Shown in pieces: positions 3,255-32,721 of a stretch of 33,920 nt of DNA. The DNA is from a virus: IMG/VR virus record IMGVR_UViG_3300042543_000289, positions 1-33,920 of that record, one strand, 5' to 3'. The first letter of the stretch is position 1. The number at the start of each line of letters is the position of its first letter. The translations under genes were made by a program, and so were the position numbers. Below the pieces are notes generated by a model. It had not been told where the DNA came from and searched no databases. It worked only from the letters and a program-made list of their open reading frames with translations.

Positions 3255-4663
3255 CTGGCGCCGTAAACCTTCGCGGCATACACGCGGCCTTTGATGCAGC
3301 GAAGGAGTCGCGGCGCACGGCTGGGTGGTACGCAACATCCGCCGGGCCAAATGCAGACCTACGCTCTGCGTGGAGCTGGCTAGTCAAGCGCCATCAGGAT
3401 CTTGTGGATAACGATGGCTATGCAAAAAAAGCTATCGGAGTCATAGTGAATAGTTGGATAGGTGATGGCATTATGTCAACACCGACCAACACGGCACAGC
3501 GATACGGTAGGCTCTGGCAATCCTGGTGTGATGAACCAATCTCTGACTTCTACGAAAAGCGTAATTGGTACGGAAATCAGGCAATAGGAGCACGAACAAC
3601 CGCCGTGCGTGGTGCTGTACTGCTGAGGAAAAGAATAAATCCTGAAATCCTGGAAAAATATAAAATGGTCCCACTACAGGTACAGATGCTTGAACCTGAT
3701 TGGCTGGATTTTGGCAAGGATAACGGGATCAATATCATTTTTGGCCAGCAATTTGACGAAGCCGGCAGGTTACAGGGCTATTGGATACGTGATAAACATC
3801 CGGGCGAGTCAATGCTTGGTTACGGCATCAAATACACAAGCAGTTTCGTTTCAAAAGACGAAATAAGCCTACATTTTGAAGACTTAAGGGCTGGCCAACG
3901 GATGGGTATTCCGTTTGGCACCGCCGCAATCCTGACTCTTCGGGACATGGGAGACACAAAGATTGCGCAGCAAATGAAGGATAAGATCTCGGCTTGTTTC
4001 TTTGGTGTGACCAGCGACAGTGACGGCCAGAATAATCAGGTTGATGATGATAAGGTTTTTGAGGAAATTGAGCCAGGAATGAACTACAAACTTCCGCCTG
4101 GCCGGTCGTTTGAAGCGTTCACACCGCCAACCTCTGGCGATTTTTCAACCACGCAAAAGCTCTACGCCCATGAAGTTGCCGCTGCCTACGAAATCACTTA
4201 CGAGGCGTTGACTGGCGATCTTTCAAACGTCAACTACAGCAGCATGAGAGGCGGCTGGCTGGAGTTTTCGCGGCGCGTTGCTCACCTGCGTGGCAACATC
4301 AGCTACCCCGGAATGCTGATGCCAGTCTGCAGGTGGCACGATGAATTGGCGCGGGCGTCTGGCCTCCTGAAGGGCCCTCGGGTGATGTGGTCGCACACCC
4401 CGCCGCGCCGCGAGATGATGGATCCCACCAAGGAGATCCCGGCGCTGGACAAGGCGGTTCGGGCTGGCATTATGAGCCTGGCGGAAGTTCACCGCTCCTA
4501 CGGCTACATCCCCGAGCAAGTGCTCGCAGAGCGCGAGAAAGAAATCAAGGAAGCTCGATCCAGGGGAATCATGCTGACGACGGATCCCGGCGCTGAGCAG
4601 TTCTTCTCAGGCCTCCAGCCAGCCACTCCGCCTACAATGCCCACAAGCAATTCTCAGCCATGA
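3251..4663 (+). CDS. portal protein, lambda gpB family
   Basis: This protein forms the dodecameric ring at the capsid vertex through which DNA enters and leaves. The 470-residue length is close to that of lambda gpB. The N-terminal part has the family's LRSAWSWLVKRHQDLVDNDGYAKKAIGVIV stretch (about residues 37-66, given here as the recognisable pattern of Arg-Asp-Leu followed by Ala-Ile). Near residues 316-335 is the strongly conserved YEALTGDLSNVNYSSMRGG. The C-terminus (about 440-470) is low-complexity Pro/Thr-rich, as in other portals. The first 950 bases are AT-rich and the last 400 GC-rich. It overlaps gpW and the protease/capsid gene by four bases each, consistent with translational coupling. 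Confidence 0.93.
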   Translation: MTGAVNLRGIHAAFDAAKESRRTAGWYATSAGPNADLRSAWSWLVKRHQDLVDNDGYAKKAIGVIVNSWIGDGIMSTPTNTAQRYGRLWQSWCDEPISDFYEKRNWYGNQAIGARTTAVRGAVLLRKRINPEILEKYKMVPLQVQMLEPDWLDFGKDNGINIIFGQQFDEAGRLQGYWIRDKHPGESMLGYGIKYTSSFVSKDEISLHFEDLRAGQRMGIPFGTAAILTLRDMGDTKIAQQMKDKISACFFGVTSDSDGQNNQVDDDKVFEEIEPGMNYKLPPGRSFEAFTPPTSGDFSTTQKLYAHEVAAAYEITYEALTGDLSNVNYSSMRGGWLEFSRRVAHLRGNISYPGMLMPVCRWHDELARASGLLKGPRVMWSHTPPRREMMDPTKEIPALDKAVRAGIMSLAEVHRSYGYIPEQVLAEREKEIKEARSRGIMLTTDPGAEQFFSGLQPATPPTMPTSNSQP

Positions 4664-6690
4664 AGTCGATCTTTCTTTACGGGGACATCGGTCTCGATGT
4701 GAGTGTCCAGGATCTGTCTGCCCAACTTGCTGAGGCGGGAACCCAGGACGTCAGTATCAACGTCTTCTCCTATGGCGGGGATGCTGGCCAGGGCCTGGCG
4801 ATGTTCAACCTGCTGGAGCGGTATCAGGGCCGGGTGACTGCCTACATCGATGGCGTGGTTGCCAGCGCTGGAACCCTGCCGGTGATGGCGGCCGACCGCA
4901 CGGTGATGCCAGCAAATGCCCTGATGCTGATCCACGACTGCTGGAGCGGCGCACGCGGCAACGCATCCAGCCTCAGGCGCCAGGCTGATCAGCTCGACAG
5001 CTTCTCTGGCAGCTATCGGGATGCCTACGCCAGGCGTACCAAGCGCTCTGCAGAGGAGGTTGCCGCATGGATGAGTGCCAACAACGGCGATGGCACGTGG
5101 TTCACTGCTCAGGCCGCACTGGATGTAGGCCTGATTGACGAGATCTCCCCCCCGGTCGCGGTTCAGGCCAAGGCACCTGCACTGGATCCCTCCAGATTCA
5201 CCGGTGAAGCCCTCCCGGAATCGCTGAAGTTTTGGGCGCAGGCTACACTGGCACAGATCGAAGCTCCGCCAATTCAAATGAGCAAGCCATCTCAGGCCGG
5301 GGGCGAACCGGCCGCTGTTGAGCCGCAAGCGACCCGCACGCCTGAGGCTACTGTCGCTCCTGTTCAGGCATCCGCCCTGCCCCCCGTGGCCCCTCCTGTC
5401 GCATCTGGCGGGGAGCTGGCCGAGCTGGCGAGTCTTCGCCGCGAGAATGACATCCGGGCCGCTGCTGCCCACGCCAACCTCCCCCCGGAGAAGGTGCAAG
5501 CGCTGATCGATGGCGGCTTGCCCATGGCACAGGCGGCCATTGAGATCGTAAAGGCTGCAGCCGCCGCATCTGATGCGCGGGCCCCCCTGGCAGGCCACCC
5601 CGCCCGCGTGCAGGTGACGCGAGACGCGGGGGAAAACGTCAAGGCCGGCATCCAGGCCCGCATCGAGCACCGTCTCAAGCCCGGTTCTGTCATGCCTGAA
5701 GCTGCCCGGCAGTTTCGGGGCTGCAGCATGTTGGACCTGATCAAGGCCTCCATGGAGATGAATGGAGTCAACCCGGTTGGGCGGAGCAAATCGGAGCTTG
5801 CCGTCTGGGCGCTTCACAGCACCAGTGACATTCCGCTGCTGCTTGAGAACGCGGCAAACAAGACGCTCATGCCTGCCTATGAGGAGGAACTTCACACCTG
5901 GGGGGCCATCGCTCTGCAGCGAAACCTCCCGGACTTCAAGGACGCAAAGACTTTTAACATTTCCGCCAATCTGATCCCCAAGGAATTGAAAGAGGGCGGT
6001 GAATATGAGTCCGCAACGATCTCTGAGAGCCGGGCATCTTGGCGTCTTTATACCTACGCCAGGAAAATCCTTTATTCTCGCGAGATGATCATCAATGATG
6101 ATCTGTCAGCGCTTGAGGAAACACTGCCCTTGTTCGGTCGTGGTTTCCGAAGGTTTGAGTCCAATATGATCTACGAACTGATCACTTCAAACGCAAACAG
6201 CGCTGAAGATGGTCTGCCGTTGTTTGACGCCTCGCACAACAACACGGGAACGGGTGCCATTTCTATTCCTTCCATCTCCGCTGGCAGAAAAGCCATGCGC
6301 AAGCAGACGGATAAAGCGGGAACGGCGATCAACCTTGAACCCGGCTTCCTGATGGGTCCGTCGGATCTTGAGGACGAAATCCTTCAATTCCTCTATCCAA
6401 ACGGTTACGCGCCTTCCGCGCTGACTGGTGCAAATGGTGTGCATCCCTATGTCGGGAAAATGCAGCCCATCGTCGAGAGCCGTCTCGATGGTTCCGCCAC
6501 TCAGTGGTATCTGGTTGCACCGAAGGAGCGGATTGCCGGAATCGTGTACGGCTATCTGGAGGACGAGCCAGGCCCCAATCTGACCAGCGAAACGCTGCGC
6601 GATCCTGACGGGATCAAGTTCATGGCCCGGATTGACTTTGGCGCGGCAATCCGCGACCATCGCGCCTTCTTCCGCTCCAGCGGAACCTGA
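4660..6690 (+). CDS. ClpP-like prohead protease fused to major capsid protein
   Basis: One 676-residue frame joins two head functions. Residues 1-162 are a ClpP/S14-type serine protease: the strand VSINVFSYGG leads to the nucleophile S69 in GVVASAG, then H92 in LMLIHDCW and D160 in GLIDEI. Residues about 200-330 are Pro/Ala-rich and helical, as expected of a scaffold or linker; this includes METs that could start a nested scaffold (for example at 5278) though none has a strong ribosome site. Residues about 340-676 match the Mu gpT-like major capsid family. Protease/capsid fusions of this kind are known. Self-cleavage presumably frees the capsid subunit. There is no separate capsid gene nearby, which supports the fusion. 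Confidence 0.92.
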   Translation: MKSIFLYGDIGLDVSVQDLSAQLAEAGTQDVSINVFSYGGDAGQGLAMFNLLERYQGRVTAYIDGVVASAGTLPVMAADRTVMPANALMLIHDCWSGARGNASSLRRQADQLDSFSGSYRDAYARRTKRSAEEVAAWMSANNGDGTWFTAQAALDVGLIDEISPPVAVQAKAPALDPSRFTGEALPESLKFWAQATLAQIEAPPIQMSKPSQAGGEPAAVEPQATRTPEATVAPVQASALPPVAPPVASGGELAELASLRRENDIRAAAAHANLPPEKVQALIDGGLPMAQAAIEIVKAAAAASDARAPLAGHPARVQVTRDAGENVKAGIQARIEHRLKPGSVMPEAARQFRGCSMLDLIKASMEMNGVNPVGRSKSELAVWALHSTSDIPLLLENAANKTLMPAYEEELHTWGAIALQRNLPDFKDAKTFNISANLIPKELKEGGEYESATISESRASWRLYTYARKILYSREMIINDDLSALEETLPLFGRGFRRFESNMIYELITSNANSAEDGLPLFDASHNNTGTGAISIPSISAGRKAMRKQTDKAGTAINLEPGFLMGPSDLEDEILQFLYPNGYAPSALTGANGVHPYVGKMQPIVESRLDGSATQWYLVAPKERIAGIVYGYLEDEPGPNLTSETLRDPDGIKFMARIDFGAAIRDHRAFFRSSGT

Positions 6691-11319: not shown

Positions 11320-11508
11320 GTGAAGAGCCCACGAATGGAGACCCCGCCAGAAGACCATCCGCTGCCCACGACGTGGATCCTTGGCGGGTGGATCTGGAGC
11401 CCTGAGGCGGGCGAGTTCGTGCCCGCCTCTCCCCAGCCCGAACCCATAGCGCTGCTGGGCCCAGCGGACACCATCACCACCGAGGAGATCACCGATGGCC
11501 AAGGCTGA
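11320..11508 (+). CDS. small hypothetical tail-region protein
   Basis: This frame encodes about 62 residues from GTG 11320, or 57 from ATG 11335; a TTG at 11296 is possible but would overlap the previous gene. The product is Pro- and Trp-rich (HPLPTTWILGGWIWSPEAGEFVPA) with an acidic end. It overlaps the tail-tube start by 14 bases, and the tube's ribosome site (GAGGAG at 11480-11485) lies inside it. The composition is protein-like and the frame fits the tight operon spacing, so I keep it as a gene. No family or function is recognised. Confidence 0.5.
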   Translation: MKSPRMETPPEDHPLPTTWILGGWIWSPEAGEFVPASPQPEPIALLGPADTITTEEITDGQG

Positions 11509-12439
11509 TGCCGTACTGCTGTTCGCGCAGGCGGGAGCCACCTATGGGGAGGCGCCAGGAACATGGCTGGGCAGTCATGCGTTGAACGTGTTCAACGTGG
11601 AGATCAACCCCCTCGAGGCCGACTCCGCCGAGCGGGAGCAAGCCGACTCCGAGGGCGGTCGGGTCACGAAGCCGCACGTTCACAACAAACGAGCCTCCCT
11701 CTCGTTTTCCACCTATCTGGTGGGGAGTGGCGTGGCGGGCACTGCTCCAGCCTGGGGAGTCCTCCAGCAAGCCTGTGGACAGACCGTGACCACCGTTGCA
11801 GGAGTGTCCAACACCTATTCGATGGTCTCGCAGAATTCTCCCATGGGATTCTGTCACCTAATCGTCTATATCGGCGGTGAGAAATTCTTCTTTAATAACG
11901 CCAGGGGAACATGCGAGGAGAACTGGACTGGGCTGCCCACCGCGAGGTGGACTTTCCAGGGCCTGGAGAACACGCCCGTCACCGAGGCGATCCTCTCGCC
12001 CACCTACGCCAACACCGGCTTGGTTCGAGCCGTGGATGCTGTCAACACGCCAACCTTTGAGTTGGGCACACAAGCCTCTCCGATCGCCCGCGAGATCTCT
12101 AGCTGGACCTTCAGCTTAAACAACGAGCTGCAGCTTAGGAACAACGGTGGCGGTTCCCGTGAGGTGATGATCGTCACCGGCCTGCCCACTGCCAGCGTGA
12201 CAATCAGAGACACTGGTTTGTCGGATTACAACAACTTCAGCATTGCTGGAGATGAGACCGAGCAGCGGCTGCGGATCGTTCACGGCCCGATTGGTTCCCG
12301 GATCTCACGGGTGATCCCCCGCTGCACACTGGCGCCGGGCACCAGGGAGGCCGTGAATAACGAGACCTACCAGACTCACGCCCTCAACATTATGCACGAT
12401 TTCAACGTGCGCAATTACTCCACCCTGATCTGCTCCTGA
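11495..12439 (+). CDS. major tail (tube) protein
   Basis: This 314-residue protein is placed between the terminator and the tail chaperone, where lambda V (tail tube) is. The N-terminal part has the tube-protein form: AVLLFAQAGATYGEAPGTW, a long loop region, then LSFSTYLVGSGVAGTAPAWGVLQQACG (split here around SGV), which resembles the segment of other siphovirus tubes that describes a small beta sandwich. TARWTFQGLEN and the strand-rich middle follow. The C-terminal half (about 190-314, ISSWTFSLNNELQLRN onward) may be an added Ig-like or decorating domain. Hundreds of copies would form the tube around the tape measure. The start is set by GAGGAG ten to fifteen bases upstream. Confidence 0.8.
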   Translation: MAKADAVLLFAQAGATYGEAPGTWLGSHALNVFNVEINPLEADSAEREQADSEGGRVTKPHVHNKRASLSFSTYLVGSGVAGTAPAWGVLQQACGQTVTTVAGVSNTYSMVSQNSPMGFCHLIVYIGGEKFFFNNARGTCEENWTGLPTARWTFQGLENTPVTEAILSPTYANTGLVRAVDAVNTPTFELGTQASPIAREISSWTFSLNNELQLRNNGGGSREVMIVTGLPTASVTIRDTGLSDYNNFSIAGDETEQRLRIVHGPIGSRISRVIPRCTLAPGTREAVNNETYQTHALNIMHDFNVRNYSTLICS

Positions 12440-12446
12440 TCCCACC

Positions 12447-12896
12447 ATGGAATTCAATCTTTTTGAAAAGCCCAAAAGCTTCCACTGTGAAGTCAGCGGG
12501 GAAACTGAAGGCGCACGGTTTCATATCCTGGCGGAATTCAAGGCGTTTGGGTCGGATGAAGAGATTGAAAATGTAATGGCCCGCATTGAAGAACTTCAGA
12601 CGGATGGCGGCAGTTCAAGGAAAATTACTGCCGCTATCTACGAGATCGCTGACGAATTGTTTATCGGGTGGGTAAATCCCGTTGATCAACCACATCTTCA
12701 GATGCGCAGTTATGGCGAGCCGGTGGAGTGCACTGAGGAGTATCGAACCGCCTTCCTGAAGCGCCCTGGCGTGTCGTTCCAGATCATGATGGCCTACCAG
12801 AAACAGAGGTTCCAGGCGAAATCGGGAAACTCCGAGAGTTCGCGCACGAATGGTTTCGCGGCCCCGCCCCAGCCGAGGAAGACCGCGCGGACATGA
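12447..12896 (+). CDS. tail assembly chaperone, gpG-like
   Basis: The 149-residue protein lies between tail tube and tape measure, the fixed place of the tail chaperones. It has an N-terminal beta part (KSFHCEVSGETEGARFHILAEFKAF) and helices (DEEIENVMARIEEL, GVSFQIMMAYQKQRF) followed by an unstructured tail. In lambda, gpG and a -1 frameshifted gpGT coat and recruit the tape measure. Here the heptamer G GGA AAC at 12824-12830 lies in the correct phase for a -1 shift into the next frame. The unshifted product would be this protein; the shifted product would be about 288 residues. Confidence 0.8.
   Translation: MEFNLFEKPKSFHCEVSGETEGARFHILAEFKAFGSDEEIENVMARIEELQTDGGSSRKITAAIYEIADELFIGWVNPVDQPHLQMRSYGEPVECTEEYRTAFLKRPGVSFQIMMAYQKQRFQAKSGNSESSRTNGFAAPPQPRKTART
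12824..12830 (+). promoter_or_regulatory. programmed -1 ribosomal frameshift site (G GGA AAC)
   Basis: In the gpG-like frame these bases read G GGA AAC, a canonical X XXY YYZ slippery heptamer that differs from lambda's G GGA AAG by one base. A slip of one base backward re-pairs on GGG AAA and continues as CTC CGA GAG, an open frame that reads without a stop through the ATG at 12893 to the stop at 13312. Downstream, CGCGG (12857-12861) can pair with CCGCG (12883-12887). That hairpin starts 27 bases after the site, so it may not be the stimulator. Confidence 0.78.
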
Positions 12897-13312
12897 GGGC
12901 GGAGCAGCTCAACATGGCGCAGGAGCTGGGCGGCGACGAAACCGCCGAATCCCTGCGGCGCCAGTTCGAGGTGCTCGATCAACTGACCCGGGGGCCCGAC
13001 GGCGGCCCACCACGTCCTCCCTGGCGGGGCCCGGCCAGCCTCTGCCGTAACGCACGGGGCGAGCTGCTGATCCTGCCTGAGAACCTGCCGGCTGTGCTTG
13101 TCTGGCTGCAGTGCGGCAATCAGTGGCATCGCGCCGGCATGGAGGGGGAGCCCGTGGCGCATGATGCCCGTGCGGCGCTCGAATACGCCCGCGCACTCAA
13201 GGAGGAGGACCCCACCGTCCGTCCTTGGCGGGTGGCGGCAGATGTCCAGGTGATCGCCGCTGAGGTGCTCGGCCTGATGAAGCTCCAGCGCTCACGACGG
13301 AGGCCCGCCTAA
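12893..13312 (+). CDS. second tail assembly chaperone frame (GT extension, DUF1799-like)
   Basis: The 139-residue frame from ATG 12893 is probably made mainly as the C-terminal part of a G-GT fusion. The same frame is open upstream to the slippery site and there encodes LREFAHEWFRGPAPAEEDRAD, which reads as natural protein sequence. Hydrophobic helices (LPAVLVWLQCGNQW, VAADVQVIAAEVLGLMK) are mixed with GC-rich linkers. In lambda the T extension binds the tail tube while G binds the tape measure, so the fusion helps to assemble the two. Independent start at 12893 remains possible because ATGA overlaps the gpG-like stop. The stop is shared with the next start as TAATG. Confidence 0.75.
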   Translation: MRAEQLNMAQELGGDETAESLRRQFEVLDQLTRGPDGGPPRPPWRGPASLCRNARGELLILPENLPAVLVWLQCGNQWHRAGMEGEPVAHDARAALEYARALKEEDPTVRPWRVAADVQVIAAEVLGLMKLQRSRRRPA

Positions 13313-16300
13313 TGGCGAACGATCTCGATGCCCTGCTGAAGGTCCAGGCCCGGGTCACCGGCCAGCAGGACCTGAGGGAAGCTGATGCCCTGCTGAAGCG
13401 CCTTGGCGTCAGCGCGGACAACTCAGCCGGTGGCATGAAGCGCATGGCCCGAGCGGGCAACGACCTGCAAGGCGCCCTTGCCGCCATCGGCCTGGGCGCC
13501 GTCGTCGCGGGCCTCACCGCCTACGGACGGCAGGCGCTGACGGCTGGCGAGGATTCCCAGCTGCTGGCTCTGCGCGTCAAGGCACTGGCGGAGCCGCTCG
13601 GCGAGGTGGCGCGGCTGCAGGCGTTCACGGCGCGGGCGGCGGAGCAGTTTACCCTCGGCCAGAACGACGCCGGCCAGGCCGTCACGGACCTCTACGGCCG
13701 CCTCAGGCCGATGGGGGTCAGCTTGGATCAGATCGAGACGACCTTCATTGGCGTGTCAAAAGCTGCCCGGCTGTCGGGCCTAGGTGCGTTCGATGCCAAA
13801 GAGGCGTTCCGCCAGCTGGGCCAGGCCATGGGGAGCGGGCGGCTCCAGGGCGATGAGCTGCGGTCACTCATGGAGCGGATGCCTGGGATCGGCCAGGCGA
13901 TTGTCGAGGTTTTCAACGACATCAGCCGCAGCCGTGGCCTTCAGCAGATCACCCGGCAGCGGGCGGAGCAACTGGTGGCTGAGGTGCGCGACGGGGAGAA
14001 GCGGCAGACCGAGGAACTGCAGGAGGGGATCAGGGACCGGCAGCGGGCGATGCAGCGAGACACGGACGACCAGCTCCGGCTGATCGCCAGGCGTTACGAC
14101 GAACTGCGCACCGCGATGAATCAAGCGGAGGAGGATGGCGACACCAAGCGCGACAGGGCAACGCAGGACAGGTTGGATGCCGAAAAGAAAGCTATAGACG
14201 AGCGATATAAGATTGAGCGCGATGGAATAGAAGAGCGCGTCAAGTTGCGACTCAAGGAGGTATCTGGAGACACCAGCTTAAGCGATGCACAAAGAGAAGC
14301 GGTAGAGAAAAGAATATCGGACGAAAGGGATGCAATTCTTGATGGTATTCAGGAGCGCCAGAGTGAGGAGCTGAAGAAACTCTCTCGCGGCTACGAGGAT
14401 CAGGCCAACCAATCCAGGCGGGCCAGGGAAGCGGAACGGACGAAAAAGGCGAATGCCCTGCAGGACCAACAGCGGGCCGAGGAGGATCAGGTGCGCGAAT
14501 CCCTGCGGCGCCGGCAGGAAGACTTGCAGTCTGCAATGAACAAGGAGCTGGAGATACAGAAAGGGGCGAACAAGAAGGCCATTGTTGACATTCTACTCAG
14601 GTCAAAGGTAACAGTTGGCGACATCAAGAAGATGGGCGCCGAGGGGCTGATAACGACTGACATCATGCTCAAGGCGATGGATAAGCTCGCTCAGAAATCC
14701 ATCCCGCCACCCACGGCGCTGATGGAGTTTAACAAGGCGATGAAAGACCTCACGAAAGTGATAGGTGATGATCTGCTGCCTACGCTGACGCCTGCGATTC
14801 AGGGTATAACGTCGCTGATTAAGTCATTCATTGCCGCTCCTGCCTGGGCGAAGCAACTCACGGTTGGCCTCGGCTTGTTGGTTGCTGCATTAGGCTCTCT
14901 TGCCCTGCTTGTTGCATCTGCAAAGTTCATTGGAGTCAGTCTTGGAATTGTCAAGCTGATTAAGCACTTCAAGGATTTGGCGAGTGCTTCACGGCTGGCC
15001 CGTGAGGCAACAAAAACCATAGGGGAAGCGCTTGTCCCCACGGCAACCATTGGTAAGCCCATCACACCGCAACAGCTCGGACTAGATCTAAGCAAAAAAT
15101 TCCAAGGCTACCAACTACCGCTAGAACTCGATCTTGTCACGCCAAAAATTCCACCAATCAAGGCGGACCTTGTTCCAGAGGTGCCACCTAGTGCTATGTC
15201 CAGGCTGATGGGCAGCCTTGGCGGCATCGGGCGAGCACTGCGCGGGCTGATCGCTGACGTGGCACTGTTCGGCGTCAGTCTGCTGGGCCTGATCCCCGGC
15301 GTGGGTCGCCTCGGCGCGGCGTTCGCGAGCCTGAGGATTGGCGCCACGATCGCGGGCTGGCTGGGCGCCTTGGTGCCCTTCGCCGGCCAGGCAATCGCAG
15401 CCATGGCGCCCTTCCTCGCCTGGATCACCGGCACCCTGCTCCCAACCCTGGTGGGTGTGTTCTCCGGCCCCGTGGGCTGGATTGCCCTGGGCCTGGCCGC
15501 GCTGGTGGTGGGGATGGTCTACTTCCGGGAGCCAATCATGGACTTCCTGTCGTGGGCTCTCGGAGAGATCGCGACATTCTGGAAAAACGTATGGAACTTC
15601 ATCTACGAAACGCAGCTTGAGCCCTGGGTTAATCTGTGGAATAGCGACCTCCTGAAACCCATAAGAGATGCCGCTAAGTCCTGGCTGAATAGCATAGTTA
15701 AATTCTTCGGCGGGATTCTTGAGTTCATCGATAAGAATTGGCTGAAGCAGTGGGGGGCCTACTGGGAGAGCTTTGCTAATGATCCCTTTGCATTCATCGA
15801 AAAGGTAGAGAGGCGGTTCGGCGATCTGTGGTCCAGCGTTGTAGAAACCTGGAAGCGAATCCCTGGCATCCTGCAGAATGTGTGGGATTCTGTCCTCAAC
15901 GGCATGGGCAGGACATGGCGTTGGATGATTGGCGGCGCTGTTGACGCTCTGAATGGAATTATCAGGCTGTGGAATAGTGTCTCTCAGAACGTGAACAGAT
16001 TGCCAACACCTGTAAAGCTGCCAGTAATCCCTGAGATCATGACGGGCCAGATCCCAGGCTTCGCCCGTGGCGGCTGGGTGTCGCGGCCCACGATCGCCCA
16101 GCTCGGCGAGGGCGGCGATCCGGGCGGGGAGTACGCAATCCCAGCCGGCCGGATGGACGCCGCCATGGCTGCGTGGATGCAGGGCGTCAGGGGCCCCGCC
16201 CTGGTGCAGGCCTGGCAATCCTCCCCCTCTCCTGCAGGGGCTCCAGCGGCTGCCCCCCTGCCTGGCAGCTACGGCGCAGCGCCACAGGTCACCCTCCAGC

Positions 16301-16461
16301 TGCAGCAGACTGGGCCCACCCTGCAGATGGCAGACGGCTCCCAGTGGATCCGGCGCGATGAGGCCATGGCCCTGTTGCAGTCCAACACCCGCGCCACCCT
16401 GGCAGCCGTTGACCAGATGAACCGCTCCGCAGTCAACCGCAACCGGTACGGGCCCCGATGA
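13312..16461 (+). CDS. tail tape measure protein
   Basis: The 1049-residue protein sets tail length and takes part in DNA ejection. The TP901/lambda-H type core is recognisable in two pieces. Residues 76-200 include LRVKALAEPLGEVARLQ, FRQLGQAMGSGRLQGDELRSLMERMPGIGQAIVEV (split here), and residues 432-458 hold VTVGDIKKMGAEGLITTDIMLKAM, which usually follows at once. Between them lies a highly charged coiled coil of about 225 residues (205-430). Hydrophobic segments at about 514-550 and 643-735 could enter membranes. The C-terminus has the usual FARGGWVSRPTIAQLGEGGDPGGEYAIPAGRM. At about 0.15 nm per residue, the protein would suit a tail of roughly 150 nm, an inference. Confidence 0.93.
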   Translation: MANDLDALLKVQARVTGQQDLREADALLKRLGVSADNSAGGMKRMARAGNDLQGALAAIGLGAVVAGLTAYGRQALTAGEDSQLLALRVKALAEPLGEVARLQAFTARAAEQFTLGQNDAGQAVTDLYGRLRPMGVSLDQIETTFIGVSKAARLSGLGAFDAKEAFRQLGQAMGSGRLQGDELRSLMERMPGIGQAIVEVFNDISRSRGLQQITRQRAEQLVAEVRDGEKRQTEELQEGIRDRQRAMQRDTDDQLRLIARRYDELRTAMNQAEEDGDTKRDRATQDRLDAEKKAIDERYKIERDGIEERVKLRLKEVSGDTSLSDAQREAVEKRISDERDAILDGIQERQSEELKKLSRGYEDQANQSRRAREAERTKKANALQDQQRAEEDQVRESLRRRQEDLQSAMNKELEIQKGANKKAIVDILLRSKVTVGDIKKMGAEGLITTDIMLKAMDKLAQKSIPPPTALMEFNKAMKDLTKVIGDDLLPTLTPAIQGITSLIKSFIAAPAWAKQLTVGLGLLVAALGSLALLVASAKFIGVSLGIVKLIKHFKDLASASRLAREATKTIGEALVPTATIGKPITPQQLGLDLSKKFQGYQLPLELDLVTPKIPPIKADLVPEVPPSAMSRLMGSLGGIGRALRGLIADVALFGVSLLGLIPGVGRLGAAFASLRIGATIAGWLGALVPFAGQAIAAMAPFLAWITGTLLPTLVGVFSGPVGWIALGLAALVVGMVYFREPIMDFLSWALGEIATFWKNVWNFIYETQLEPWVNLWNSDLLKPIRDAAKSWLNSIVKFFGGILEFIDKNWLKQWGAYWESFANDPFAFIEKVERRFGDLWSSVVETWKRIPGILQNVWDSVLNGMGRTWRWMIGGAVDALNGIIRLWNSVSQNVNRLPTPVKLPVIPEIMTGQIPGFARGGWVSRPTIAQLGEGGDPGGEYAIPAGRMDAAMAAWMQGVRGPALVQAWQSSPSPAGAPAAAPLPGSYGAAPQVTLQLQQTGPTLQMADGSQWIRRDEAMALLQSNTRATLAAVDQMNRSAVNRNRYGPR

Positions 16462-22390: not shown

Positions 22391-23131
22391 ATGGCGGAAG
22401 ATCTGGCATCAGTGCGCGATGCGGTAGAGCACGCGGTGAAGGTGGGCCGGCTGGAGCCCCATCAGCTCGCGGCGCTCTCGAAGCATGACGAGGGCCTCAC
22501 GCTGGCCCAGCGGCAGGAGTTCACTGAAGGCTGGCGGGCCAAGGGATCCCCGGCGAAGCCGGTGCACGCCAACCCGCTCAGGGTGCCCTACTACAGCCAG
22601 CGAGACAGTGGCACGCAGCACGCCAACAGGATGTGCTTCAGCAGCGCCTGCGCCATGATGCTGGAGGGCATGAAGCCCGGAACGCTGCCTGGCCCCAACG
22701 GCGATGATGCCTACCTAGGCCGAGTGTTCCGCTATGGCGACACCATCAACTCCGAAAGCCAGGTAAAAGCGCTTGCCTCCTACGGCGTCACCGCAATGCT
22801 GAAGAAAAATTGCACAGTTGACGATATCAAGGCACAGATCGATCGGGGCATCTCCGTGCCTTTGGGATGTATTCACAAGGGCAACTTTCAGAACCTATAT
22901 GGCGATGGTCACTGGATTAACGCTATTGGATATGATAAGACCGCGTTTGTAGTGCACGATCCGTTTGGGGAGATGGATGTGATCAATGGCGGTTATCTCA
23001 ACAGCAATGGCAAAGCCCTTCGTTACTCATTCAAGAATTTTTGCCGCCGCTGGGAGGTTGTGCAGGCTGGCAGCAGTTACCGCTATGCACCGGGCAATGG
23101 CTGGGCAATCATCGCCCAGCCTGTTGCCTGA
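22391..23131 (+). CDS. C39-like cysteine peptidase, candidate endolysin or tail-associated hydrolase
   Basis: Residues 62-200 form a papain-like C39-type peptidase domain: LRVPYYSQRDS leads to the nucleophile C82 in NRMCFSSACAMML, then H174 in GHWINAIGYD and D190 in VHDPFG. These three fit the Cys-His-Asp triad. The N-terminal 60 residues (HQLAALSKHDEGLTLAQRQEF) are helical and may bind the cell wall or partner. The closest known use in phages is peptide-bond cleavage in the wall or substrate during lysis or entry. No signal peptide is seen. It is the last gene of the late operon, where endolysins are often placed, though a tail-tip role is also possible. The start follows the previous stop by three bases. 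Confidence 0.78.
   Translation: MAEDLASVRDAVEHAVKVGRLEPHQLAALSKHDEGLTLAQRQEFTEGWRAKGSPAKPVHANPLRVPYYSQRDSGTQHANRMCFSSACAMMLEGMKPGTLPGPNGDDAYLGRVFRYGDTINSESQVKALASYGVTAMLKKNCTVDDIKAQIDRGISVPLGCIHKGNFQNLYGDGHWINAIGYDKTAFVVHDPFGEMDVINGGYLNSNGKALRYSFKNFCRRWEVVQAGSSYRYAPGNGWAIIAQPVA
23099..23121. terminator. hairpin at the convergent operon junction
   Basis: GGCTGGGC (23099-23106) and GCCCAGCC (23114-23121) form a perfect eight-base stem with a seven-base loop. The hairpin lies at the 3' end of the peptidase gene, ten bases before its stop, and the minus-strand operon ends at 23156, just to the right. There is no T-run on either side, so it is not a classical intrinsic terminator, but a strong stem at a point where two operons meet is likely to limit read-through on both strands. 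Confidence 0.35.
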
Positions 23132-29691: not shown

Positions 29692-30263
29692 GGGGTGCTC
29701 TCGGGGGTTGCAATGCGCCGCACAGGAGCGGCAGGTGCTGAGGTTCCGCCAGCGGGGATGATCCGCCGCCGAGCGGGCTCAGGAGGTGCGCTGGCCGGTG
29801 GAGGTGCCACCGGCGCGGGGGCGGGCCGGGCAGGCGCTGGGGCGGCTGCTGGCCGTGCTGGTGGGGGATCGTCCTCCAGCAGGAGAACGGTGTAGATCAT
29901 TCGCTCTCCACGGGTTTTGGTGAGGATGATCTCAAGTTTCGGGCCAGGGATGTTAGTCATGTGACTGATGCGGATCCCCCCGGCCTTTACGCCTTTGTAG
30001 GGAACAGTTGGATCACGGAAGAGTGTGATTCTGCGCCCGATGTAAACGGTTGAATCGGTATCCCAGGCGCCAACCAAAACGCGGCGCATGCTCAGGCATG
30101 GCAGGTAAGGGCGGCCTTCGTCGCCTTCGTATGAGATCGCGACTTTTTGCTTGTCGTTTGGCCCTGGCTTTACGCTCGTGATCTTTATCGTTTTGCTACC
30201 TGCAATCAGGTCGTCAGCATTTAACTGAGCCGATTGGGGCTTGATTGTGTCGGATAGGTCCAT
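29688..30263 (-). CDS. conserved partner of the YqaJ exonuclease
   Basis: The first 130 residues are a conserved domain that I know from other phages next to YqaJ-type nucleases: MDLSDTIKPQSAQLNADDLI, SKTIKITSVKPG, PYLPCLSMRRVLVGAWDTDS, YIGRRITLFRDPTVPYKGVKAGGIRISHMT, and TRGERMIYTVLLLEDD. The last 60 residues are Pro/Ala-rich and probably disordered. No catalytic residues are clear. The likely role is DNA end binding or annealing, inferred from its neighbours: exonuclease upstream, coiled-coil protein and SSB downstream. It shares one base with the exonuclease stop (TGATG). Confidence 0.75.
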   Translation of the reverse strand: MDLSDTIKPQSAQLNADDLIAGSKTIKITSVKPGPNDKQKVAISYEGDEGRPYLPCLSMRRVLVGAWDTDSTVYIGRRITLFRDPTVPYKGVKAGGIRISHMTNIPGPKLEIILTKTRGERMIYTVLLLEDDPPPARPAAAPAPARPAPAPVAPPPASAPPEPARRRIIPAGGTSAPAAPVRRIATPESTP

Positions 30264-30952
30264 CAGAATTTGATGTCGTCTTCGGGTTCTATTGAGGCTA
30301 GGTCAACGGGCTCGGTGTCAACCATTGTAAGGGTGATACAGTTGTAGTGTGAAAGCATTTGATCTAGCTGCTTTTCTGCCGCATGTGCAGCGGTCTCAAT
30401 GGCCAAGATCATTTGTTCATCTCTGCATACCCTGTGGCAGTAGAAAGAAAGGCCTGGGGTGTAAGATATAAAGTCAAGCCAGGGTCTGCCGGTAACCAGC
30501 AAGCCGGTCTGAATTTGAATTGCAAACTCTGAAGGAACTCCGCCCTCCAGAATGCTTTTGACGTGATGCTTCGCCAGGCGAGACTTAATCTCAATCAAAC
30601 CATCATCTCCAACTACACCGTCGGGACTGAACCCGAGGGTAAAGCCTTTGTAGTGCCGCTGAATGAAGCCGCACTCGGTAACGGGGTGGTAATACCTGGC
30701 ATACAGATCACGGGCGTAAGGCTCCAGCATGTGGCCTCGCAGCATGTCGTTGCTGCAGTAGGAAGAGTCGCTGGTGCCAGTAATTCGTTCGGCGAGGAGT
30801 TGGGCCAGGTAGGCGCGGCTGGTGTCATTGTTGGCCACCTTCCCCGTTGGGGTGACCAACACTTTCATGGCGCTGGCTGTGATGACCCCCCGGCGGATGG
30901 CGTCCCATTCTGGGGTGCCCTGCATGATGTCCCAGTGATAGGTGGGATCCAT
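30263..30952 (-). CDS. YqaJ/lambda-type viral recombinase exonuclease
   Basis: The 229-residue protein degrades one strand from DNA ends, producing the overhangs used for annealing. The N-terminus GTPEWDAIRRGVITAS (12-27) is the family motif. The metal-binding acids are in GHMLEPYARDLY (E77), GFSPDGVVG (D111) and GLIEIKSR (E121, K123), giving the PD-(D/E)xK layout, with Q146/Q148 after it (PSEFAIQIQTGLLVTG). The gene follows an 82-base gap that holds a weak promoter candidate, so the recombination set may also start here. Confidence 0.92.
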   Translation of the reverse strand: MDPTYHWDIMQGTPEWDAIRRGVITASAMKVLVTPTGKVANNDTSRAYLAQLLAERITGTSDSSYCSNDMLRGHMLEPYARDLYARYYHPVTECGFIQRHYKGFTLGFSPDGVVGDDGLIEIKSRLAKHHVKSILEGGVPSEFAIQIQTGLLVTGRPWLDFISYTPGLSFYCHRVCRDEQMILAIETAAHAAEKQLDQMLSHYNCITLTMVDTEPVDLASIEPEDDIKF

Positions 30953-31545: not shown

Positions 31546-32721
31546 CTACAGGCTGAGACCGAGCTGGGCGCCATCGGTGCGATGTTCTGCCATGGCGAAA
31601 GAATCGGGATCCTGTTCAATCCCTATGGCGTAGAAGCCCTCACTATTCGCGGCCTTTATGGTGGTCCCGCTGCCCATGAATGGATCTAGCACCGTTCCCC
31701 CTGGTGGGGTGACCAGCCGGCAAAGGTAGGCCATCAGAGCGAGGGGCTTCACCGTGGGATGCGCGACCCCCTGGCGTTCGCTGGCGCTGGCCTTGGCGGT
31801 GTAGAAGAAGCGGGCGGCAGAGCCGTGATCTGAAGTCCCTAGCTCTCTGTCTGCCTGATGCGGAAAGCCGCCGTACACCTTGTTTCCGTGGCCAGTGTTG
31901 CCCTTCATGCCGACCTTGCCGCTCACGACAGGAAACAACCCCACCACCTCGTAGCTGCCGTCGTGGATCAAATTGCTAGGCCAGCGGCCTCCCGGTTTCA
32001 ACTCCAATACAGACTCCCGCCTGCCCGCCTGCCGGTGCTTCTCGCTGGGGTTGTCGATATTGGCCTGCGATGGGGCCATCATCCGGCAGTCCTCGTCGTG
32101 AGCCACCCTGCACCCGTCGATGTTCAGCGCCCCGGTGCCGTGCTCCAGCACCGTCGCGGCGACGGTGCTGCTTAGGGGCTTGCGGGCCACGGTGATCGGC
32201 TCCAAGGCGGGCTTTAGAGCGGTGCCCCAGCCTTGCCACTGGCGGGCGGCTTCGGTGGCGGGGGCGGTGATGTCAAGTTCAATTGGTCCGCGATTGGCTT
32301 GCGTCCAAGCATCCTGAGCGAAGGTTTGCGAACCGCCAATCCCTGCCTTCATGCGGCTGCCAACCACCTTTCGCTCGGCCCCCGCAGCCTTGTCGATCGC
32401 CTTGCTCACGTCCAACGACTTCGGAAACCCCGACCCGTAGACCCAGGCGATCATGTCCCGGATCTCGAAACCCGCATCCTCAATTCGACAGGCCATTCGA
32501 TGCTGTGTCCGCGTCCCTGCAAAGGCCAGCAGATGCCCGCCAGGCTTCAGCACCCGCAGGCACTCCGCCCAAACCTCAACACTGGGCACGTCGTAATCCC
32601 ACTTCTTGCCCATGAATGACAGGCCATAGGGCGGATCGGTCACCACCGCGTCAATGCTGCAGTCCGGCATGGTGCGGAGCACCTCCAGGCAGTCGCCAAG
32701 GTGAAGGGTGTGCATTGTCAC
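31546..32721 (-). CDS. DNA methyltransferase (N4-cytosine/N6-adenine, class beta)
   Basis: The 391-residue protein has the class-beta motif order: DPPY (29-32) near the N-terminus and the AdoMet-binding DPFMGSGTT (346-354) near the C-terminus. Its target-recognition region (about 85-300) lies between. HPTVKPLALMAYLCRLV (about 322-338) precedes motif I as usual. It would methylate phage DNA, protecting it against host restriction or marking it for packaging or gene control. No cognate restriction gene is nearby, so it is an orphan. An alternative ATG at 32715 is two codons later. It overlaps the helicase stop by four bases. Confidence 0.9.
   Translation of the reverse strand: MTMHTLHLGDCLEVLRTMPDCSIDAVVTDPPYGLSFMGKKWDYDVPSVEVWAECLRVLKPGGHLLAFAGTRTQHRMACRIEDAGFEIRDMIAWVYGSGFPKSLDVSKAIDKAAGAERKVVGSRMKAGIGGSQTFAQDAWTQANRGPIELDITAPATEAARQWQGWGTALKPALEPITVARKPLSSTVAATVLEHGTGALNIDGCRVAHDEDCRMMAPSQANIDNPSEKHRQAGRRESVLELKPGGRWPSNLIHDGSYEVVGLFPVVSGKVGMKGNTGHGNKVYGGFPHQADRELGTSDHGSAARFFYTAKASASERQGVAHPTVKPLALMAYLCRLVTPPGGTVLDPFMGSGTTIKAANSEGFYAIGIEQDPDSFAMAEHRTDGAQLGLSL

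Follow-up and report, generated by a model that had tools for sequence, protein, structure and literature searches.

The locus examined here raises the question of whether two small overlapping genes just upstream of a phage tape measure gene are expressed as separate proteins or are also joined by a programmed -1 ribosomal frameshift, a device familiar in long-tailed phages such as lambda, where the slip site is G GGA AAG. A conserved tail-chaperone frameshift of dsDNA phages was reportedly described by Xu, Hendrix and Duda in 2004. In the window (33,920 nt of viral DNA, the whole stretch analysed), the first gene, at 12447..12896 on the + strand, encodes a G-like tail assembly chaperone of 149 aa if no shift occurs. 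The second, as called from its ATG by the ORF finder (12893..13312, + strand, 139 aa), would encode T, and its ATG overlaps the G stop codon as ATGA. The tape measure protein (13312..16461, + strand, 1049 aa; Pfam TMP_3 E 1.5e-21 and many PHROG tape measure families) is encoded directly downstream and would be the expected client of G and of a G-GT fusion. Upstream, the gene at 11495..12439 (+ strand) had no family match in Pfam/PHROG profile searches and, judged by position only, probably encodes the major tail (tube) protein, with which the T part would be expected to interact. The gene order G, T, tape measure agrees with a tail-chaperone frameshift. Elsewhere in the window, 4660-6690 encodes a single 676-aa protein in which a Clp-type head maturation protease is fused to the major capsid domain Phage_capsid_4; a Peptidase_C39-like protein, possibly a lysis enzyme, lies downstream of the tail genes (22391-23131); and a minus-strand cluster carries a YqaJ-like recombinase and an N6/N4 DNA methylase (30263-30952 and 31546-32721).

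The heptamer GGGAAAC occupies positions 12824..12830 (+ strand). The zero frame of the first gene reads ..TCG GGA AAC TCC.., which places the heptamer in the phase G GGA AAC, with the pattern X XXY YYZ, inside the G/T overlap. The preliminary description of this DNA had put it in exact zero-frame phase at the end of a gpG-like gene; the coordinates and phase are as described, but 21 sense codons and then the stop codon follow, and the site does not lie at the very end. Reading in the -1 frame after a slip gives CTC CGA GAG.., that is LREFAHEWFRGPAPAEEDRAD-M(12893).., and continues, as had been proposed, through the next gene to the TAA at 13310-13312, for a T extension of 160 aa plus the stop codon (12830..13312, + strand). 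This frame is already open from 12737 and holds no ATG, GTG or TTG before 12893. The predicted G-GT fusion, of which the first 128 aa are common to G, has a computed length of exactly 288 aa, in agreement with the earlier estimate of about 288; its predicted junction peptide is ..AKSGNLREFAHEWF.. (junction-type peptide ..SGNLREFAHEWF..).

The string GGGAAAC occurs in the window about as often as chance predicts (3 found vs 4 expected), and a second copy in the G gene, at 12499, is out of phase. The count of heptamers over the full window showed no enrichment and was uninformative. The chance that a strong in-phase heptamer (Y = A or T) arises anywhere within the last 53 codons is 3-5%; because of this, the window sequence alone is weak evidence, and the case rests on conservation. 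These same figures speak for reading the heptamer as a product of chance, or the two frames as one continuous gene split by a sequencing or assembly indel, whereas the two-frame arrangement recurs in separately assembled contigs and in the complete genomes of named phages. Conservation effectively refutes this explanation, which is left with a very small probability.

Scans of viral contigs found the junction in eight of them. Since several derive from related samples, the set represents about three T lineages and four G lineages. One contig (L002) is identical to the window. In the L003/L004/L005, L006, L007 type, T is 94-96% and G 53% identical to the window; the corresponding values are 36-37% and 34% in L013/L021, and in L020 T is 41% identical. 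GGGAAAC stands in the same phase in all eight (L002-L007, L020 and L021; T 36-100% identical), and is kept though G is only 34-53% identical in most of them. An additional match in genome_contigs (L029) was a false positive, a bacterial chemoreceptor-like protein. The G gene of the window is a mosaic: the window DNA follows the L003/L005/L007 type as far as 12501 and resumes the match at 12786, so that the junction and T travel together. Within 12447-12786, about 285-340 nt of G have been replaced by a divergent version (G 53% identical at the amino acid level) with breakpoints near 12501 and 12786; the DNA on either side of the replacement, which takes in the frameshift junction, shares 86-94% identity with related contigs. 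A comparison of the junction among related phages had been suggested as a check, and in every related junction found the heptamer and the -1 peptide upstream of the T start are conserved. No case of a destroyed heptamer with both genes intact was found among the related contigs and 12 named phages.

Depending on the lineage, the -1 peptide that follows the slip begins with LREFAHEWF, LREFAREWF or LQAFAREWV, and in each of the eight related contigs the motif L..FA[RH]EW comes directly after the slip and ahead of the T ATG. The preliminary description had held that this segment reads as natural protein; its peptide was correct and is conserved across the related junctions. As a null, the zero-frame protein was held fixed and synonymous codons were randomised, with 1000 draws for each of seven comparisons. 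The observed -1 similarity exceeded 1000 of 1000 randomisations in 7/7 comparisons. In the reverse test, the zero-frame constraint was weaker in distant comparisons, and the similarity of the zero-frame tail went beyond the null in only part of the comparisons. The -1 frame is open from the slip through T and is constrained at the protein level upstream of any T start. In L003 and L021, a -1 stop codon lies just upstream of the heptamer (12 nt and 30 nt before it, respectively) with no start-like codon between, and the -1 peptide can therefore be entered solely at the heptamer or in its immediate neighbourhood. A longer free T made from a non-standard start inside G would have one near-start codon available in the window (ATC 12821), whereas in L003, L006, L007 and L021 the stretch from the upstream -1 stop to the heptamer holds no start-like codon; such a product is extremely improbable.

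The same data bear on the possibility that G and T are separate proteins, with T translated by termination-reinitiation at the ATGA (ATG 12893) and the heptamer accidental. The ATGA overlap is found in all loci of the window group, L020 and L021 included, and a GAGG-like motif lies ~14 nt before the T ATG. Against this stand the conservation as protein of the -1 frame upstream of that ATG and the retention of the heptamer while the rest of G diverges. Moreover, the slippery site is conserved in the named relatives described below, but in most of them the annotated T start, found 50-200 nt beyond the G stop, is not. Separate translation as the whole explanation is very unlikely. The ATGA overlap at 12893 may leave room for some separate T, and reinitiation could add some T alone alongside a frameshift product.

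No match was found by tblastn of the window G or T against the phages collection; named relatives were reached via the tape measure protein and then via the T of S-LBS1. By tape measure and terminase, the nearest named phages are Synechococcus siphophages, with the S-LBS1 tape measure as the best match and its terminase 45% identical over 97%. A search with the T of S-LBS1 returned 695 phage records. The window T scored 22.8 bits against DUF1799 (E 1.1e-4), below the Pfam cutoff of 26, and matched phrog_680 at E 9.9e-5, while T sequences of the S-LBS1 group score 44-54 bits, above the DUF1799 cutoff; a profile-profile match between the T proteins of the two groups gave E 2.6e-5. By these profile matches, the window T is a divergent relative of DUF1799/phrog_680, and its closest kin on present comparisons is the HK639/Synechococcus-siphophage DUF1799 branch rather than the gpT of lambda itself. 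The host is probably cyanobacterial, judging from the phage relatives.

All 12 named phages examined that have a DUF1799/phrog_680 T carry, at the corresponding junction, an in-phase heptamer that is either GGGAAAC or AAAAAAC, and a broken slip site was seen in none of them (0/12). In S-LBS1, S-CBS3 and S-CBS1, AAAAAAC immediately precedes the G stop, and slipping by -1 there would lead into a T with a full DUF1799 match. In the other nine (HK639, phiES15, Silvanus, YMC11/02/R656, Medea1, phiPMW, pAEv1818, RS1 and Dhillonvirus LM40P1), the heptamer is GGGAAAC or AAAAAAC, again always directly before the G stop. Every examined member of the DUF1799 branch thus retains the predicted slip site, and the A-site codon is AAC in each. 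A profile alignment of the window-group and Synechococcus fusions (E 4.4e-10) put both slip residues in one column, the window slip residue N128 and the following L sharing columns with the N-L of S-LBS1, whose predicted junction peptide is ..AKNLTAAVEHLF... At this junction a joined frameshift product is annotated in Silvanus; in the more distantly related KS9, the corresponding gene position is occupied by a joined tail protein. In S-LBS1, T is annotated from an internal ATG, and the records of S-CBS1 and S-CBS3 are also without a joined product. The S-LBS1 G (MG271909 13023-13403; L030 3524-3904) is annotated as 'ATPase component of ABC-type cobalamin/Fe3+-siderophores transport system', and phrog_569 and phrog_680 are labelled 'tail length tape measure protein', although their members in L030, L031 and L032 are the pair of tail chaperones encoded ahead of the tape measure gene.

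The window G reached no Pfam family and matched phrog_569 weakly, and its profile match to the G proteins of the S-LBS1 group had E 1.8e-7. An AlphaFold2 model of G (pLDDT 85.6) found tape measure chaperones of Serratia phage Scapp in BFVD (E 0.016 and 0.027, prob 0.97-0.99), with other tail assembly chaperones ranking lower and the top matches (E 5e-5 to 7e-4) carrying no chaperone name. A Foldseek search of the model against the PDB gave no significant match. As modelled, the G fold is one that matches known tail or tape measure chaperones; these fold matches, like the profile matches, are in keeping with the predicted frameshift. The model of T (pLDDT 50.5) was too poor for use.

Downstream of the heptamer, a possible stimulatory stem would pair GUUCGCGC (12838..12845, + strand), which begins after 7 nt, with GCGCGGAC (12885..12892, + strand), which abuts the T ATG. 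Across the cyanophage-type loci tested, the stem starts 5-7 nt after the heptamer in 9/9, the usual stimulator spacing being 5-9 nt (PMC5009743). The window stem is 8 bp long; stronger stems at the same spacing occur in L007 (10 bp), L020 (11 bp), L021 (13 bp), S-LBS1 (13 bp) and S-CBS1 (9 bp). Because the criterion was chosen after the folds were seen, the chance fractions are indicative only: 1.5% of random anchors in the window do as well, random anchors equal the stem in 0.1-1.7% of cases when six lineages are taken singly, and individual fractions over the nine loci run from 0.001 to 0.076. The 45-nt downstream segment of the window folded no better than shuffles, with an MFE that was not unusual, and MFE z-scores over 87 nt were not significant. 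A notable stem was absent in 5/9 of the further named phages, and upstream Shine-Dalgarno-like stimulation was not above background. The stem is likely to act as a stimulator in part of the family; for the stem of the window itself, this role is uncertain.

Taken together, the comparisons indicate that the junction is very likely a programmed -1 ribosomal frameshift by which two tail-assembly chaperones would be made from one start. By all comparative criteria it has the features of a real and ordinary lambda-type -1 frameshift signal of the DUF1799 branch. Most ribosomes would read G to its stop at 12896 and release the 149-residue G protein. On a minority, tRNA-Gly on GGA and tRNA-Asn on AAC would slip back one base to GGG and AAA, possibly assisted by the RNA stem that starts 7 nt downstream of the heptamer, and these ribosomes would continue in the -1 frame to 13312 to give the 288-residue G-GT protein. 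In lambda, G and GT arise through the -1 frameshift; G binds to the tape measure and T to the tube protein (PMC5009743). By analogy, the tape measure protein here would be coated by G, and the tail tube protein recruited by the T portion of GT. With these assignments, both tail-chaperone genes can be annotated correctly in a phage group that is otherwise without matches. Retention of the slip site extends to three published Synechococcus phages in whose records the genes are entered separately, and the natural set of GGGAAAC/AAAAAAC sites from probable cyanobacterial hosts could be used for the measurement of frameshift efficiency.

The arrangement resembles lambda gpG/gpG-T: in both, the tape measure gene is immediately preceded by a pair of small ORFs that overlap, G carries near its end an X XXY YYZ heptamer phased to the zero frame, and an open -1 frame leads to a G-T fusion. 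It differs in the A-site codon, which is AAC (Asn, read by tRNA-Asn) in the window and AAG (Lys, read by tRNA-Lys) in lambda, and in the T protein, which belongs to the DUF1799 type; between the window G and lambda gpG, no sequence relationship was detected. Slippage in E. coli is much weaker at A_AAA_AAC than at A_AAA_AAG, and the poorer standing of AAC as an A-site codon in this A_AAA_AAN series counts against a frameshift here (PMC5009743). GGGAAAC is also the predicted slip site in gp18/gp19 of phage KL1 (PMC3483164) and in Caulobacter phage Colossus (PMC3556154), and is listed for HCTV-1 (PMC5009743). KL1 and Colossus, which are other phages of other hosts, share with the window the predicted site in a tail chaperone gene; in KL1 the stop codon comes immediately after this site, and the tape measure gene is preceded by an extra gene (PMC3483164). 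The HK639/S-LBS1-type DUF1799 phages share with the window a homologous T, the heptamer GGGAAAC or AAAAAAC, the gene order and, in many, a downstream stem; S-LBS1, S-CBS1 and S-CBS3 also share the column of the slip residue, Asn then Leu. In the window group, T has an extra insert of ~35-40 residues and a weak score against the family profile, and the G stop lies 64-82 nt past the slip, whereas in the named phages it directly follows the heptamer. With this displaced stop, free G has a C-terminal tail of 21-27 residues encoded by the same bases as the start of T. It is conceivable, if rather doubtful, that the stop has moved such that the G tail and the T start are dual-coded with both frames functional; if so, the window group would represent a dual-coding variant of the design, seen in its named relatives, in which the stop comes right after the slip.
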